From positions 1 to 38,895 of the IMG/VR virus record IMGVR_UViG_3300004457_000113: a DNA stretch of 38,895 bases; one strand, given 5' to 3'. Below the pieces are notes generated by a model. It worked only from the letters and a program-made list of their open reading frames with translations. It did not search any database and was not told the origin of the DNA. This DNA is from a virus. The translations under genes were made by a program, and so were the position numbers. Of this stretch, positions 5,048 through 38,895 are shown piece after piece (position 1 is the stretch's first letter; each line of letters opens with the position of its first letter).

Positions 5048-6024
5048 GTATGAAAGACCCATCCGAAATGGATGCTAAAGAGTTGCAAGAAAACTCTTCG
5101 TATGACCCGAATGACGCAGAAGAGAAGCCTTTTCTGCGAGTATCGAAGTCGTCTTTCATCGGATATGATATGTGTCCGAGAAAATACTGGTGGGAGAAGG
5201 TTCAATTAAAGAATCAAAGGATGCCTGCTACTCCCGCTATGATTCGTGGGGGCTTCGTACATAAGAACCTCGAAATCCTATACGATAATTGGGATGGTCA
5301 GTCTGTCCTCTCCCCTCTTATTCCAGAGGGTCGTGAAGATATAGCGAATGAGAACTTAGCGTTCTTGGAAGAATGTCGTATCGCAAAGTGGGGAATCGAG
5401 AGTTTCGAGCCAGATGAATACGAAGTAAAGCACTACGTATGGGATGCGGAATACGAAGTAGTCCTCGTAGGAATGATAGACGGCGTACTCGTACATCCAG
5501 ATGGAGGTCTATGTATCTACGAATTGAAAACAGGTAACATGGCGAGTACGAAGATGTCAAAGACTCGCAAGGAACTTTGCTACTATACTCGTATGCTGAA
5601 ATTGATGGGCGAAACCAGACCTATCACTCACTTCGCATACTTATGTCCAGACGCAGAGAATCACAAATTCATCGCAGAACTTTGCAATTGGGGTATCTAT
5701 CAGCAGGTCGATGGCAAGAAGAAGCGTGTCGATTGGGATGAGGATAGAGTTCTCATGAGCGAAGCAGGTTGGCTCGATTCAGACAGCAAGCGTGATGTCG
5801 CTATCGGCAAGAAGGGTAAAGGGTTACTCGTCATCGAAAAACTGAATAATCGCAGTATGACTGCTTTTGAGAAGAGTTATGCTAAAGTCGTGGAAGGAAT
5901 TAAGACCCACGAATGGGATATGAAGTGGAATGATTACTTCTGCCCTGCATGGTGTGAGTTTGCTATGTCTTGCGAGAGCGAGTTAAACGGACTCGATAAT
6001 CTATGGGAAGGCGATGAATGGTGA
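5044..6024 (+). CDS. Cas4-like PD-(D/E)XK nuclease with Fe-S cluster
   Basis: This 326-residue protein belongs to the RecB/Cas4-type nuclease family. It has the N-terminal KSSFIGYDMCPRKYWW segment with the first cluster cysteine, RGGFVHKNLE, then the catalytic core GMIDGVL (Asp) and YELKTGN (Glu-x-Lys, near residue 160). The C-terminal CPAWCEFAMSC supplies the other three cysteines of a 4Fe-4S cluster. Known members degrade or resect DNA ends. In archaeal viruses they are usually found with replication genes rather than with CRISPR adaptation genes, and no cas1 or cas2 is present here. The start overlaps the upstream stop by four bases (a second ATG lies six bases on) and the end overlaps the methyltransferase by seven. 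It probably processes viral or host DNA during replication or recombination. Confidence 0.9.
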   Translation: MSMKDPSEMDAKELQENSSYDPNDAEEKPFLRVSKSSFIGYDMCPRKYWWEKVQLKNQRMPATPAMIRGGFVHKNLEILYDNWDGQSVLSPLIPEGREDIANENLAFLEECRIAKWGIESFEPDEYEVKHYVWDAEYEVVLVGMIDGVLVHPDGGLCIYELKTGNMASTKMSKTRKELCYYTRMLKLMGETRPITHFAYLCPDAENHKFIAELCNWGIYQQVDGKKKRVDWDEDRVLMSEAGWLDSDSKRDVAIGKKGKGLLVIEKLNNRSMTAFEKSYAKVVEGIKTHEWDMKWNDYFCPAWCEFAMSCESELNGLDNLWEGDEW

Positions 6025-7955: not shown

Positions 7956-8146
7956 AACATGATATACGAGAGATGCTCATAGAGGCTAAAGGTATCAGAA
8001 ATATCTGGTTAGAGACAATTATGAATAAGGATTGGGATAATAAGCAAGAGATGATGGAAGCGATTCGCAACTACAATGCTTTGCGTGGAGTAGTCAAAAG
8101 TCTCCAATGGATACTTTCAGATGCTATGCCATCCCCATTAAGTTGA
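7946..8146 (+). CDS. Small helical protein of unknown function
   Basis: This ORF of about 66 residues lies between the primase and the ERCC4 nuclease and overlaps the primase end by a few bases. No ATG is available at its head. A TTG at 7946, nine bases after GGGAGG at 7931-7936, is the most likely start; TTG 7940 and an internal ATG are alternatives. The product is charged and helical with no cysteine cluster or membrane segment. It is likely to be real, because it fills the gap with a good ribosome binding site, but I recognise no family. Confidence 0.5.
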   Translation: MRLEHDIREMLIEAKGIRNIWLETIMNKDWDNKQEMMEAIRNYNALRGVVKSLQWILSDAMPSPLS

Positions 8147-8151
8147 TATAC
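8144..8151 (+). promoter_or_regulatory. Archaeal TATA-like box for the ERCC4 nuclease gene
   Basis: TGATATAC is centred about 25 bases before the ATG at 8173 and overlaps the 3' end of the preceding small gene. This fits leaderless transcription and helps choose 8173 over the upstream in-frame ATG at 8107, which would add a cysteine-rich stretch foreign to the family. Confidence 0.5.
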
Positions 8152-8172
8152 CTTTGCGAAGTATGTCGTATC

Positions 8173-8880
8173 ATGATATACGCTGATGACCGAGAAAACG
8201 AGAAGTTGTTGCATCGTCTCTACATGGCTTGTGGTAATCGTAAGACAGACCCTAAAGGGGATATAATGGTCAAGAGACTGCATCATGGGGATTATCAAAT
8301 AGGTGATTGGCTTATCGAAGCAAAGGAAATCAATGACTTGTATCGCACAATCTTGGGTATAGGTCGTAATGGTCGCACAATCAATCATCAACTATCGGAG
8401 ATGTGCGAAGTTTCTGAGATGCCGTTCCTTGCTATTTACGGAACGCAATTCAAACCGTTCTTCAAAGGACGTAGGCCGAAAGCAAACGAAATCAGTAGAG
8501 AAATAGCAAAAATGAATCGAGTAGTGAAGAACTTCAAGATGGTCGCCTACTCTCACTTCCCTAAGTTGCGTATCATAGAATTCAATAACATGGATGACTT
8601 CGTAGAGTGGTTGTCTGTTTCGCATCTAAAGAAGCAGATGGGTAAAAGTCTGACAGTTCCTAAGAGAACCAGAACATTACCCACAGACCCGAGACTACTC
8701 GCTCTTATGGGAGTGCAGGGAATCACAGAAGAAATAGCAACTGCACTTTTGGATAAGTACGGAAGTGTACCTAACTTGCTAAAGACGAAAGTTCGTATGA
8801 AGGACTTGATGTCTGTTCGTGGTGTGGGAAGAGTTACTGCAAGAAGAATAAAGCAATTGAGAACTTCGTGGAAAGATTGA
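8173..8880 (+). CDS. ERCC4-family structure-specific nuclease (XPF/Hef-type) with HhH domain
   Basis: This 235-residue protein begins directly with the ERCC4 nuclease core. It has YADDRE at residues 3-8, HHGDYQIGDWLIEAKEINDL (the GDxxIExKxxxD-type catalytic block, with Ala in place of the Arg of the usual ERK) near 35-55, and a basic helix region near 70-110. A tandem helix-hairpin-helix region follows at about 172-232 (LMGVQGITEEIATALL and LMSVRGVGRVTARRI), the DNA-binding part that pairs with the nuclease in XPF, MUS81 and Hef. These enzymes cut branched DNA such as forks and flaps. Here it probably resolves replication or recombination intermediates of the viral genome. It is the last rightward early gene before the convergent junction. 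Confidence 0.9.
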   Translation: MIYADDRENEKLLHRLYMACGNRKTDPKGDIMVKRLHHGDYQIGDWLIEAKEINDLYRTILGIGRNGRTINHQLSEMCEVSEMPFLAIYGTQFKPFFKGRRPKANEISREIAKMNRVVKNFKMVAYSHFPKLRIIEFNNMDDFVEWLSVSHLKKQMGKSLTVPKRTRTLPTDPRLLALMGVQGITEEIATALLDKYGSVPNLLKTKVRMKDLMSVRGVGRVTARRIKQLRTSWKD

Positions 8881-35300: not shown

Positions 35301-35469
35301 TAAAGAAATGCGACTTACTGAAATAGCAGATAACTTAGTCGCTGCTAACATAATGACGCAAGAATATGTCATAGGTGTCATGCTTTCGAGGCGTGAAGTT
35401 GAAATACTATGTGTGTCATTAGCCGAATGGTGCGGTATCCCTCTCGGTATCGCAGATGAGGAAGAATAA
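35275..35469 (+). CDS. Small helical protein before the large terminase
   Basis: This protein of about 64 residues overlaps the phosphoesterase end and meets the terminase start as TAATG. The ATG at 35275 (or 35278) follows GGAG at a good distance; 35269 and 35308 are alternatives. The product is helical and acidic at its end (MRLTEIADNLVAANIMTQEY, REVEILCVSLAEW, IADEEE). It might be a small terminase-associated protein, but its size is below that of known small terminase subunits. Confidence 0.6.
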   Translation: MMKIWASYDKEMRLTEIADNLVAANIMTQEYVIGVMLSRREVEILCVSLAEWCGIPLGIADEEE

Positions 35470-36983
35470 TGAATAGAATGCTAACTGCTCTCAATCTTGA
35501 GAGGTCTAAGTATGATGTCAAGCATTTTTATGAGTGGCTCGGTTACAACTGGGGCGACCACATAGGAGAATGGCTCGATTTGTATGGAGACAGACAGGGG
35601 GCGCAAGTACATCGTGTTTGTATTATCGCACCCAGAGACCATAGTAAATCGACTACTCTTCGTGTCAAAGCATTGCATATGTTACTTTTCGAGAGGTGGC
35701 GCAACAAACCCTTCACTATCTGGCTATTTTCAGCGAGCAAAGATTTGGCTATGAACCGTCTCGAAGAAATACGGCAAGACCTTAAGAGGCATCCCGAACT
35801 ATCAAGACAAATAGATGAAAAGCGTGGCAACCGTTTTGAAATCCGTCTTAACAACGGCGCATGGATTAAGGCGACATCTGTTGGTTCTGGTATTCGTGGT
35901 GAGCATCCTGCTGCAATTCTACTTGATGACGTACTCGATGACCAAAACGATATGTCTTTTGACTTTACGCAACAATGGTTTAGAAAGAAACTAACACCTA
36001 TGCTGTCTCCGGGAACCTCAGTTTACTGCGTAGGTACTCCGATGTCTATGAATGACCTCTATCACACAGAGATGTTAGAAAATGAGTCATGGAAATCATG
36101 GAGAGAAGGGGCTATCACTAACTATGATGAGTGGAGACAAGACCCAGATAACATAAAACCTGTATGTCTCTGGCCTGCTGAAAGACCTCTCGACTTTTTA
36201 TTAGAGCAAAGACAGGCTATCGGTGAACTTGCATTTGCTCAAGAGTACCTATGTAAGGTCGTAGACGATGACAGCGCAGTATTTCCTGCGACAATGACTC
36301 GCAAGAATATGTCGTTGTCCGAAACTTTAGAGTTTAGCAAGTTACACGACGGCAAATATGCAGTAGGTTTTGACCCTTCGCATGGTATCGGACAAGATTA
36401 CTCCGTAATGGTCGTAGTTCGCAAAGATTCTGACGGCAATATCCACATCGTAAACATCTGGCGACGTAATGACTTTCCCCCTGCTAAACAGATAGATGTA
36501 ATCGCAGACTTCAACGACAAGTACAAGAGACCTAAATTCGCATTTGAAAGCGCAGGTTTCCAACATCTCTACAAATCCCTCTTGGAACAAAGAGGAATGA
36601 CACTCGATATGAAGATGTCTAAAGTATCTAACAAGACATTGAAACAAGGATTGCTTACGAGACTACGTAGTTGGTTCGAGCAAGGTAAGATTATCGTACC
36701 CTATGGTAACGATGAGACCCGCAAGAGTATGATTGTACTACTTTCTGAGTTAGAATCGCACGTATGGAAGAATGGAGACATTCTCGATAAGGGTAAGCAC
36801 AACGATATAGTGATGGCATTAGCACACGCAGTAGATATGTTCAATATGAGTACCAAAGGCGGTATGCCTGCCGTATCAGCCAATGTAGATATGTCATCAT
36901 GGGGCAGAAACAAGAAAAAGAACAATTCTAATAGAGTTAGCAGAAAATCTGGTAAATCTGGAAAGTATAGGACGTTTTTCTAA
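35469..36983 (+). CDS. terL: Terminase large subunit
   Basis: This 504-residue packaging motor has both ATPase and nuclease domains. The Walker A variant APRDHSKST is near residue 55 and Walker B ILLDDVLDD near 149. The coupling region VYCVGTPMSMNDLYHTEM follows near 190. The RNase H-like nuclease motifs are VGFDPSHGIGQDYSV near 298, FAFESAGFQ near 357 and HNDIVMALAHAVD near 443. It cuts and pumps viral DNA into the head through the portal. The ATG overlaps the upstream stop (TAATG). The C-terminus is basic (KKKNNSNRVSRKSGKSGK). Length is normal for the family. A TATA box lies right after its stop. Confidence 0.95.
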   Translation: MNRMLTALNLERSKYDVKHFYEWLGYNWGDHIGEWLDLYGDRQGAQVHRVCIIAPRDHSKSTTLRVKALHMLLFERWRNKPFTIWLFSASKDLAMNRLEEIRQDLKRHPELSRQIDEKRGNRFEIRLNNGAWIKATSVGSGIRGEHPAAILLDDVLDDQNDMSFDFTQQWFRKKLTPMLSPGTSVYCVGTPMSMNDLYHTEMLENESWKSWREGAITNYDEWRQDPDNIKPVCLWPAERPLDFLLEQRQAIGELAFAQEYLCKVVDDDSAVFPATMTRKNMSLSETLEFSKLHDGKYAVGFDPSHGIGQDYSVMVVVRKDSDGNIHIVNIWRRNDFPPAKQIDVIADFNDKYKRPKFAFESAGFQHLYKSLLEQRGMTLDMKMSKVSNKTLKQGLLTRLRSWFEQGKIIVPYGNDETRKSMIVLLSELESHVWKNGDILDKGKHNDIVMALAHAVDMFNMSTKGGMPAVSANVDMSSWGRNKKKNNSNRVSRKSGKSGKYRTFF

Positions 36984-36991
36984 TATATAAA
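36984..36991 (+). promoter_or_regulatory. TATA box at the start of the hairpin-rich region
   Basis: TATATAAA begins one base after the terminase stop codon. It predicts a transcript starting near 37012-37016, just before the first long hairpin. No ATG lies at that point, which favours a non-coding or long-leader RNA. Confidence 0.5.
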
Positions 36992-37034
36992 GCGTTTTGA
37001 AAAAAATACCAAAAATTTTTGCGAGGTGCTTGGC

Positions 37035-37280
37035 GACTACTGGCGTAGCCAGTAGTCATTGTTTGGCCGCAACCAGACCCCATCCCTTTGGGATGGGGTC
37101 TGATATTTATGACGTGAAAAAATCGGGCAGAATTATCTACGATAATTCTGCCCGGAATTGCTGAACTCCAGACTATTTCACCCCCTTTCCCTTTAGGGAA
37201 AGGGGGTGTCGGCTTTTGCCGAGCCGACGATTTAGGTTGCCCTAACAATTTCATTCTCCTTTACGTAGTAAAGGAGAATG
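37035..37280 (+). repeat. Cluster of long perfect hairpins after terL (candidate structured RNA)
   Basis: Five long hairpins follow each other: 37035-37057 (10-bp stem, loop GTA), 37074-37102 (13 bp, loop TTT), 37124-37154 (14 bp, loop TAC), 37179-37208 (13 bp, loop TTTA) and 37252-37280 (13 bp, loop GTA). A sixth at 37208-37228 has a 7-bp stem. The stems are perfect and far longer than chance. Both strands show open frames here (36997-37170 plus from TTG, 36937-37254 minus), but no frame has a good start. The position next to the terminase and downstream of a TATA box suits a structured RNA, possibly for packaging, or a cis-acting DNA site. Confidence 0.65.
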
Positions 37281-37292
37281 GTTCAAGGAAAA

Positions 37293-37300
37293 TTCTATAA
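37293..37300 (+). promoter_or_regulatory. TATA-like box for the small zinc ORF
   Basis: TTCTATAA is centred about 27 bases before the ATG at 37324, the same spacing as the other leaderless promoters in this window. Confidence 0.45.
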
Positions 37301-37323
37301 GCAATGCTGTATTAGTCGTATCA

Positions 37324-37446
37324 ATGTCAAAAGACACCGAACCAAAATGCAACTGCCGAAGAGACGATGAAGGATACCTACTTGGTGAACCTTGTTCACC
37401 ATGTAAGATAGCCTTCAAGAAGGACATTCAAGACTGGGTTCTCTGA
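37324..37446 (+). CDS. Small zinc-knuckle protein within the hairpin region
   Basis: This 40-residue ORF (start MSKDTEPKCNCRRDDEG) contains CNC and CSPC thirteen residues apart, a likely four-ligand metal site, and ends with FKKDIQDWVL. A TATA-like box lies 27 bases before the ATG. An 8-bp hairpin (37383-37401) lies inside the gene and its stop codon falls in the loop of the strong hairpin at 37427-37460. The cysteine pattern and promoter support it as a real gene in spite of its size. Function unknown. Confidence 0.5.
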   Translation: MSKDTEPKCNCRRDDEGYLLGEPCSPCKIAFKKDIQDWVL

Positions 37447-37460
37447 ACCCCAGTCTTGAA
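37427..37460 (+). terminator. Hairpin around the stop codon of the zinc ORF
   Basis: TTCAAGACTGGG pairs perfectly with CCCAGTCTTGAA (12 bp), with three more pairs after a one-base bulge and a TCT loop that adjoins the TGA. AAAAAG rather than a T-run follows, so it is not a classical terminator; it may protect the 3' end of the message. The next hairpin, 37477-37498 (10 bp, loop TT), follows within 17 bases. Confidence 0.4.
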
Positions 37461-37503
37461 AAAGACCCCGTCGTAATCAGTACAATTTATTGTACTGAAA
37501 GCC

Positions 37504-37550
37504 GAATCCAGAGGAGGTCAGCCTCCTCTGGATTCTTTTTTTTTTTTTTT
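37504..37550 (+). terminator. Strong hairpin followed by fifteen T residues
   Basis: GAATCCAGAGGAGG pairs with CCTCCTCTGGATTC (14 bp, loop TCAG) and is followed at once by T15 (37536-37550). Poly-T tracts terminate archaeal RNA polymerase, and the GC-rich stem would reinforce this. It probably ends the packaging operon transcript and the transcripts started at 36984 and 37293. Confidence 0.8.
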
Positions 37551-37811
37551 ATGTCAAAACAAACCTTCGGTTTGAACTAATATAAAGGGGGAAGTTTTGC
37601 TAAGAAATTTTTAGCATTTTTATCATGGGGTTCTCAGAGAGAACCTCGCACTAAAATCGCAAGAGTTTATCGAAGATATTTTTTGAATCGGTTCGTTCGT
37701 TGGACTAAGGCTTTAGCCTTAGAATCTGATGTTCCCTTTCATGTACTTATTAGATACAAAGTTACTGAAATACTGCAACAAGTTGCAGTAAAAGGACAAC
37801 TATCGGCATAA
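37551..37811 (+). pseudogene. Interrupted ORF with in-frame TAA
   Basis: ATG 37551 opens a frame of nine codons (MSKQTFGLN) to TAA at 37578. The same frame then stays open for 76 codons and reads like a basic helical protein (FAKKFLAFLSWGSQREPRTK, YRRYFLNRFVRWTKALALE). No ATG lies in the long part; TTG 37683 is the only plausible internal start. It may be a gene broken by a nonsense change, a readthrough product, or a chance frame. A TATAAAGG lies just after the stop. Hairpins at 37560, 37629, 37705 and 37771 lie inside it. Confidence 0.3.
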
Positions 37812-37957
37812 TTCCGAGAATGAACTTGATTATCAGATAAGCAACGAAGTTGCGATTTGAACAAAGAGTATATTTATTGGTTAGTGTTGAGAAACTACTA
37901 ACCAATAAATCGGGAAATTTCCTCTGGAAATTTTTTCCATGCTCGCGTACTTGCGAG
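37560..37957 (+). repeat. Series of short perfect hairpins, middle part
   Basis: Perfect stem-loops: 37560-37574 (6 bp, loop TTC), 37598-37616 (6 bp, loop 7), 37629-37645 (7 bp, loop AGA), 37705-37722 (8 bp, loop TT), 37771-37790 (9 bp, loop AA), 37841-37853 (5 bp, loop GAA), 37872-37910 (14 bp, loop 11), 37915-37933 (8 bp, loop TCT, followed by T-rich sequence) and 37942-37957 (5 bp, loop 6). Apart from the interrupted ORF, no gene was found from 37812 to 37938. Confidence 0.75.
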
Positions 37958-38196
37958 ATGATTGGTCGGTTCAAAACATCAGGACCCTAAAGGGTCCTGC
38001 TTTTCGCAAAACTTCTAATACCAAGTCCTTTAAAAGGACTCTATGTGTAGGGGTGAGTACCTCGATTTTCAAACCAAAAATTGTTGCTAAAAATATCTCC
38101 GATATTTCCTTTACTTTTAGCAATAAGGTATCAGAATACCTTATTGCAAAAGTCTGGGGGTTAGTCCCTAAAGGGACTACTGTCTTGTTATTTTAG
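37939..38196 (+). CDS. Hypothetical 85-residue protein in the hairpin region
   Basis: ATG 37939 opens 85 codons ending at a TAG just before the leader of the next gene. The sequence is basic in the first half and beta-like in the second (TSIFKPKIVAKNISDISF, YLIAKVWGLVPKGTTVLL). No ribosome binding site or correctly placed TATA box precedes it. Much of it is made of palindromes: for example LKG, FKR and VPKG fall on hairpin loops. It may be a real gene shaped by the palindromes or a frame kept open by chance. No family recognised. Confidence 0.35.
   Translation: MLAYLRDDWSVQNIRTLKGPAFRKTSNTKSFKRTLCVGVSTSIFKPKIVAKNISDISFTFSNKVSEYLIAKVWGLVPKGTTVLLF
37980..38179 (+). repeat. Series of perfect hairpins inside the 85-residue ORF
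   Basis: Stem-loops at 37980-37999 (9 bp, loop AA), 38024-38040 (7 bp, loop TAA), 38091-38107 (7 bp, loop TCC) nested in an outer 7-bp stem 38084-38123, 38120-38147 (12 bp, loop CAGA) and 38162-38179 (8 bp, loop AA). The outer stem and the 12-bp hairpin share bases and could be alternative folds. Confidence 0.75.
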
Positions 38197-38243
38197 TATC
38201 ATTTAGTCTCCTTAACAAGTGAAGGAGACGTATAAAATGATAC
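38196..38243 (+). promoter_or_regulatory. Nested stem that covers the ribosome binding site and start codon
   Basis: GTATCATTT (38196-38204) pairs with AAATGATAC (38235-38243), which contains the ATG at 38237. Inside it GTCTCCTT (38206-38213) pairs with AAGGAGAC (38222-38229), which contains the Shine-Dalgarno sequence AAGGAG. In the closed form both signals are hidden, so translation of the downstream gene could be switched by a protein, a small RNA or temperature. Confidence 0.6.
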
Positions 38244-38895
38244 ATAAAGATAACAAAAAGAACGAAAACCAAACCGAAGGAGGTCGAATCAATCACTTAA
38301 CTGGTAACGAAGTTACCGAGTTTGACTTCGATGTAGCAATCAAGATTGCTTTCCCTTTGAAGTTCCAACGACCTTTGGTCGAATTGGCTCAAAGCACTTT
38401 GGACTTAGTCCAAGAAGTAGTCGATGATGAGTTGCTAAAGCAAGTGTTTACTAAAGTAACCCCTTCTGCCTTTGGCAGATTTTTTGCTCTTGTTGGTCTT
38501 TCAGACCAGCCAAGAACGATACAATCGTTCTTTTCTGAATTGGAAATCTTCGTAGCCAGAGTTTACTCTGGAAGTCAAGTCGATTGGTTCGTTGATGCAA
38601 TCAACGATGAGAAGTTCAGTAACCTTGTAAACAAGGTCTCAGAATTTCTTGCTAAAAGCAAGGATGACCTTCTGAATGATTGCATCATTCCAGTTTACAG
38701 AGTTCCGAAGGAAGGCCGTGAAATCGACCTTCAAGTTTTACTTGAATCTGCTTTTGACAAAATGGTTCTACGAACCTTCAGAACTCCAGCCATCATCTTC
38801 GATGATGAACTGCCTATCATTTATGATAGATTGGACGAATTTACAATCGAAGATTGCAATTTAGTCTACGACTATTGCTCTGCTAAAGCAGAAGA
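38237..38895 (+). CDS. Unidentified protein encoded through dense hairpins, 3'-truncated by window end
   Basis: From ATG 38237 a frame runs 219 codons to the end of the window without a stop. AAGGAG lies nine bases upstream. The start is polar (MIHKDNKKNENQTEGG), and the rest is a regular helical, acidic protein (LVELAQSTLDLVQEVVDDEL, VDWFVDAINDEKFSNLVNKV, PAIIFDDELPIIYDRLDEF). I recognise no domain. The codons are built around about 22 small perfect hairpins; in eight of thirteen 3-base loops I checked, the loop is exactly one codon. The protein looks folded and constrained, so it is probably real, with an added constraint on its nucleic acid. Confidence 0.65.
   Translation, partial: MIHKDNKKNENQTEGGRINHLTGNEVTEFDFDVAIKIAFPLKFQRPLVELAQSTLDLVQEVVDDELLKQVFTKVTPSAFGRFFALVGLSDQPRTIQSFFSELEIFVARVYSGSQVDWFVDAINDEKFSNLVNKVSEFLAKSKDDLLNDCIIPVYRVPKEGREIDLQVLLESAFDKMVLRTFRTPAIIFDDELPIIYDRLDEFTIEDCNLVYDYCSAKAE
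38303..38892 (+). repeat. About 22 perfect short hairpins inside the terminal ORF
   Basis: Stem-loops (stem length in bp): 38303-38317 (6), 38335-38350 (7), 38369-38381 (5, with an outer 4), 38390-38401 (5), 38399-38413 (6), 38432-38443 (5), 38448-38459 (5), 38465-38479 (6), 38494-38508 (6), 38512-38532 (9), 38556-38571 (6), 38589-38607 (8), 38622-38637 (7), 38648-38662 (6), 38674-38690 (7), 38730-38746 (7), 38764-38776 (5), 38791-38807 (7), 38814-38829 (7), 38844-38856 (5), 38862-38874 (5), 38879-38892 (5). Loops are 2-4 bases. Most do not overlap each other. Confidence 0.85.

Follow-up and report, generated by a model that had tools for sequence, protein, structure and literature searches.

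The stretch of DNA analysed here in its entirety (the window) is a virus record of 38,895 bases that carries genes for a terminase large subunit (terL), portal and tail proteins, and a B-family DNA polymerase (PolB). This gene content identifies the source as a tailed virus that infects bacteria or archaea. Beyond terL, the window ends in a region crowded with short perfect hairpins (the field), and the features of this region are as follows.

35469-36983, forward strand: terL (phrog_38, E = 3.5e-49), upstream of the field and without hairpin excess
36984-37035, forward strand: boundary element, composed of TATATAAA, an A/T-rich run and then GAGGTGCTTGGCG (37023-37035); the field begins here
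37035-38236, unstranded: core of the field, mostly non-coding, with 18 perfect stems of at least 7 bp and up to 14 bp
37035-37057, unstranded: hairpin 1, loop GTA; in the relative L009 the loop is TAC (exact inversion) and the stem is rebuilt
37074-37102, unstranded: hairpin of 13 bp; in L009 the upper stem is wholly different, both arms together
37124-37154, unstranded: hairpin of 14 bp, identical in L009
37179-37208, unstranded: hairpin of 14 bp with core CTTTAG; in L009 the core is inverted (CTAAAG) and the arms are the same
37252-37280, unstranded: hairpin of 13 bp
37324-37446, forward strand: cysteine-rich open reading frame (ORF) of 40 amino acids (CxC and CxxC; CNC..CSPC) within the field
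37504-37550, forward strand: terminator-like hairpin of 14 bp followed by a T run; in L009 the loop TCAG is kept and the stem is rebuilt
37771-37790, unstranded: hairpin of 9 bp with core ACAAGT, inverted in L009 (ACTTGT)
38120-38147, unstranded: hairpin of 12 bp, conserved in L009
38237-38893, forward strand: hairpin-saturated ORF of no known family that runs beyond the contig end

The product of the ORF at 38237-38893 has no Pfam or PHROG match, and the structural model of a homologue, which itself has no match in the PDB, predicts an all-helical protein (pLDDT 79). The cysteine-rich ORF is conserved within the field, and a reading frame is also open at the corresponding place in L009, around 5790-5907. 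Elsewhere in the window, positions 8107-8880 encode an XPF-like nuclease with ERCC4 and helix-hairpin-helix (HHH) domains that has no match in named phages. Together with an RFC-like clamp loader found in relatives, this nuclease hints at an archaeal host, but is not proof of one. Two GTDB scans for a host, using terL and PolB, returned no relative, and no tRNAs were found. Among named phages, the best terL match reaches 28%, and the PolB matches are mixed, with haloarchaeal viruses among them. These viruses also encode an SbcD-like phosphoesterase. Homologues of both the ERCC4-HHH nuclease and the phosphoesterase are kept in relatives that carry no hairpins, and the trait is therefore not accounted for by either gene.

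A preliminary description had counted 14 stems of at least 8 bp between 37035 and 38236, and this count was reproduced for loops of 2-4 nt. When loops of 2-8 nt are admitted there are 15 such perfect stems, the additional one having a loop of 8 nt, compared with 0.17 on average and at most 2 in dinucleotide shuffles. From 37035 to the end of the window, 27 perfect stems of at least 7 bp (loops 2-8 nt) are present, whereas 100 dinucleotide shuffles of this region gave a mean of 1.07 and a maximum of 3; eight stems reach at least 10 bp, against 0.02 in the shuffles. The remainder of the window holds 0-3 stems per kb, and thus the region is indeed unlike its surroundings. The DNA fold of positions 37024-37560 has a z-score of -15.8. 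In addition, GC skew, which elsewhere tracks gene direction, is approximately zero within the field because inverted repeats force it to be so.

Hairpins are also in excess within coding sequence. The reading frame from 38219 to the end contains 15 stems of at least 6 bp where 1.4 are expected. When the codons of 38237-38893 were permuted such that both protein sequence and codon usage were kept, the expectation was 1.5 for these 15 stems and 0.57 for the nine stems of at least 7 bp, and none of 200 permutations attained either observed count. The same codon-preserving test revealed no hairpin excess in terL or PolB. Neither type of shuffling therefore reaches the observed density. The proposal that the pattern ignores the line between coding and non-coding DNA holds in that coding hairpins exceed the codon-preserving control, but genes do limit the stems, mostly to 6-9 bp, whereas non-coding stems extend to 16 bp. 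The spacing of hairpins is wider than the 20-40 bases originally proposed, with a pooled median of 54 nt and no sharp fixed interval.

A terL search of IMG/VR yielded 80 relatives, and in about half of these the DNA after terL is saturated with hairpins at 10-23 per kb, thinning over 5-25 kb. Contigs of 62-64 kb display the complete one-sided ramp. For example, successive kilobases of genome G010 hold 17, 13, 21, 16, 12, 7, 4, 4, 2... hairpins before background is reached, G011 and G012 have similar ramps, and log-linear decay lengths for the three contigs are 5.7-6.9 kb, near 6 kb. One further contig (G025; L163-L165) derives from the same virus, being 99.95% identical to window positions 1-25383 (25.4 kb). 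It begins within the field and supplies the part of the genome that is absent from the window, where hairpins fade through 19, 10, 6, 5, 2, 2, 5, 2, 1 and 0 per kb. Stem length also drops with distance, from a maximum of 16 bp over the initial 600 nt to a median of about 8 bp in the next 600 nt, both of which are mostly non-coding, and to mostly 6-8 bp beyond. The field in the window is the edge of a larger one-way field in which both hairpin number and stem length decay. Of the limits first assigned to it, 37035-38892, the start is confirmed, but the end is merely that of the contig, since the contig from the same virus carries the field further.

The start of the field is set by the conserved boundary element and not by the terL gene. 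Its terminal motif, GAGGTGGTTGGCG (window 37023-37035), follows the A/T-rich stretch between terL and the field and occurs as a single exact copy in the window. The element is conserved in 19 aligned relatives, both hairpin-bearing and hairpin-free, including the hairpin-free sister clade. Some relatives have the element 415-724 nt away from terL, and in these the field begins only past the element. In two of these (L050 and L052), the first hairpin appears 11 nt past the first base of the motif (735 versus 724, and 705 versus 694), and in four others (L057, L058, L064 and L066) it appears only about 200 nt past it. About half of the relatives have a TATA-like sequence in the element. When the boundary element of the hairpin-free clade was searched for an RNA stem, no single consistent fold emerged.

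In the terL tree, the field marks a 32-row clade, with one 10-row subclade free of hairpins, and a 19-row outgroup lies near background. The field is found in both well-supported trait-bearing subclades, and two changes are needed to account for it on this tree; one gain and one loss would be the simplest reading. A comparison of gene presence and absence in 18 genomes identified no gene that is common to both hairpin-bearing groups yet absent from the hairpin-free one. PolB was also considered as a cause, and each of these viruses retains intact motifs for both the exonuclease and the polymerase.

Other types of repeats were encountered in these lineages. Members of the hairpin-free sister clade (L121:11662-13086 of G018, L127:17230-18909 of G022, and sister genomes) carry 15-23 dispersed copies of a motif of approximately 20 bp, AAACGATRGACTGMGAGCC, mostly in the same sense as terL. 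These copies are confined almost entirely to the initial 2 kb that follow terL. In outgroup viruses (L072:12983-16736, L092, L076 and L079), GGTTACAAAAAC is repeated about 40 times in the interval from +1.5 to +5 kb past terL. The boundary element is found in L072 too, along with a single sequence similar to the sister-clade motif.

Alignments between close relatives reveal how the hairpins change. The terL genes of L030 and L031 are identical (0 of 1494 positions differ), and the following 1420 nt contain seven differences in 876 non-stem sites plus one altered hairpin. In this hairpin, the middle of both arms has been rebuilt and yet is perfectly paired in each virus (CTATGTGGACATCGAAGATGTCCACATAG versus CTATACCCCCTATCGAAGATAGGGGGTATAG), such that 10 of 10 stem substitutions are paired. 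Arms have likewise been homogenized together, in what appears as a single step, in L022/L012 and window/L009. Among 18 hairpins compared between the window and L009, stems are rebuilt in three, a single pair is switched, and the loop is exactly inverted in three (GTA/TAC, TT/AA and AA/TT). Thus, loops can be inverted while the arms remain unchanged. Hairpins matched by their arms yielded 12 exact loop inversions versus 39 single substitutions, where some matches may be non-orthologous. When 10 alignments were pooled, 108 stem pairs had switched as pairs, 79 were broken and 2723 were the same, with 7.45% substitution outside hairpins; independent changes in the two arms would be expected to give about 0-1 switched pairs per comparison. 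Arms therefore change as pairs.

Template switching between inverted repeats yields arm homogenization and spacer inversion (PMC8604942), the two changes seen here, and such switching by a polymerase from one arm to the other is well supported as the mode of copying in these viruses. Runaway quasi-palindrome mutation, one of the options raised in the preliminary description, gains support from the one-step paired arm changes and the loop inversions, which point to such a process. We lean towards the reading that the field would be produced by a self-sustaining quasi-palindrome template-switch process, operating one-sidedly from a fixed initiation element. As viral DNA is synthesized, fold-back copying would perfect and lengthen chance palindromes of 3-4 bp with loops of 2-4 nt. 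Perfect hairpins would then correct themselves, such that their places persist while their sequence drifts. Less surely, the boundary element may be where an event that exposes single-stranded DNA begins, and exposure that drops over kilobases would give the one-sided gradient. Candidate starting events include strand-displacing replication, R-loop-primed replication or an R-loop-forming transcript, a DNA end, or its processing, at a packaging site beside terL, and transcription. Counted against the template-switch account are the different dispersed repeats that fill the same zone in other lineages, the GC-rich early stems, the slower change of stems in L025/L027, and the lack of a gene that tracks presence and absence of the field. 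The dispersed repeats look more like protein-binding sites than the result of a copying accident.

Several of these observations fit instead with a selected DNA function, in which the hairpins, as cruciforms or in single-stranded DNA, serve as binding or protection sites for viral or host proteins near the start of packaging, entry or replication, with template switching as no more than their source and means of repair. Homologous positions carry hairpins across terL identities of 60-98%, even within genes (VDxIN and LA-SK stretches), and stems in the first 1.2 kb, near the boundary element, are GC-richer than their flanks (0.47-0.50 versus 0.40). The repeats in the same zone of the sister and outgroup lineages agree with such a function as well. 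In L025/L027, stems change slightly more slowly than the flanking DNA, which could reflect selection for hairpins but could also reflect correction by template switching. However, stem sequence is not shared, spacing is not fixed, the spectrum of mismatches is random, one whole subclade has no hairpins, and the field thins smoothly across unrelated genes. We consider a selected function of this kind to be possible but rather unlikely. Two further options of the preliminary description, folding of single-stranded DNA and a protein that binds hairpins, are compatible with the data. Similarly tentative is the idea of an active system that writes and uses hairpins. The element past terL would start polarized writing of perfect hairpins into the first kilobases, genes included, for a structure-specific factor that might use them, for example, to shield or label whichever end is first to enter the cell or to be packaged, and sister lineages would have swapped in other dispersed repeats.

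A role at the RNA level would require an early transcript, long and structured or armoured against nucleases, that originates from the boundary element. The TATA-like sequence present in about half of the relatives, the position of the first hairpins just downstream of the element, and a conserved hairpin with a T run that resembles a terminator, some 0.5 kb further on, are consistent with this proposal. In L010, the hairpin corresponding to 37504-37550 is again 14 bp and has another stem sequence with the same TCAG loop. Tolerance of G.T or G.U pairs would be expected of RNA, or of single-stranded DNA under selection for stability. A survey of 17 regions revealed 472 perfect stems of at least 8 bp and 110 with one mismatch, but among the latter G.T (18) is not in excess over A.C (20), transitions make up about one third, as in random single hits, and G.U on the sense strand is not preferentially tolerated. 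Favoured loops are nearly strand-symmetric (TTTA 43, TAAA 37). Strong folding was indeed found, but has no sense bias, since the antisense strand of the coding part folds as well or better (z of -8.7 versus -6.8 for the sense strand). In addition, stem GC equals local GC within genes, an Rfam search gave no match at gathering score, and hairpin density carries on beyond the terminator-like site. The lack of G.T excess, near strand symmetry, the antisense fold and GC parity indicate that the pattern belongs to the DNA duplex or its copying. Selection for RNA structure is therefore disfavoured, as are the long structured RNA and armoured mRNA suggested previously, and we judge an RNA-level function to be improbable.

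The zone could in principle have been filled by palindromic elements that are mobile or inserted, comparable to Rickettsia palindromic elements or REP sequences, and some genomes do favour particular hairpin tips, such as CCTAAAGG (11 of the 21 hairpins in L053) and ATCGAAGAT (9 of the 48 in L050). However, stem sequences within a genome are unrelated, and searching the genome with the zone matches only each hairpin's own reverse copy, with tips partly shared. Moreover, many coding hairpins replace homologous codons of relatives without added length, and insertion would not predict a one-sided gradient, which makes this origin highly improbable. An artefact of assembly or amplification, or chance, has a negligible probability even though several contigs, including the window, end within the zone, given the shuffle and codon-shuffle controls, the full gradient on 62-64 kb contigs, and the near-identical zones recovered from several independent metagenomes (L033/L034; L044/L046/L047), which are not expected from assembly errors.

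The closest parallel in coding sequence comes from mitochondrial genes of Nematomorpha, whose palindromes have arms of 15-142 bp (mean 43) and for which template switching has been proposed (PMC6649704). Both systems have perfect inverted repeats in protein genes beyond what codon constraint would give, with both arms coding, perfection kept, and places partly common between species. In the virus, arms of at least 15 bp are not typical, as stem lengths are 6-16 bp with a mode of 6-8 bp. The Nematomorpha arms are long and scattered over mitochondrial genes and are not known to have such an anchor, whereas the field in this tailed dsDNA virus has arms of 7-16 bp, loops of 2-4 nt and 10-20 hairpins per kb, with one anchoring element, a one-sided gradient, and loop inversions between relatives. 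Template switching in yeast and E. coli shares arm homogenization, spacer inversion, multi-nucleotide changes and short spacers with the virus, but those events are rare and isolated (PMC8604942, PMC7202029), whereas the viral field is saturated over kilobases. For RNA genes, it has been argued that paired changes arise in one step, without G.U intermediates (PMC8794818). There too, perfect stems are made and mended by one DNA-copying event, but the genes are functional RNAs under RNA selection, of which the viral field gives no sign.

Quasi-palindrome mutation in yeast, which also makes arms identical, needs high transcription and RNA:DNA hybrids and is limited by the XPF-family nuclease Rad1-Rad10 (PMC3820800), to which the ERCC4-HHH nuclease of these viruses may be compared. 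By analogy, dependence on transcription could account for a gradient that starts at a promoter. The yeast events, however, are reporter hot spots in mutants, whereas the viral field is natural and the nuclease also occurs in relatives that lack hairpins.

The copying mechanism is thus already known, but we found no precedent in the open-access literature for a hairpin field or anchored gradient in a virus, extending over kilobases of coding and non-coding DNA with a measurable decay, and none of 50,697 phage records gave a DNA match to the hairpin zone. Template-switch mutation is usually studied as rare single-site events, and this virus offers a natural case in which kilobases, genes included, have seemingly been reshaped. 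Because the field starts at a fixed point and its gradient can be measured, sequence alone would suffice to test the rate at which palindromes form, the polarity of the process, and its self-reinforcement. The same data urge caution, as perfect paired changes do not prove RNA structure. If the hairpins are used, they would represent a new kind of sequence-independent genome mark.

A further sequence feature was also noted in some relatives. Non-coding DNA 3-4 kb downstream in L034 (5376-6252), and at a similar distance in L026 and L028, is rich in alternating purine-pyrimidine words, such as GCGTACATGTGCGTAC, that overlap hairpins.
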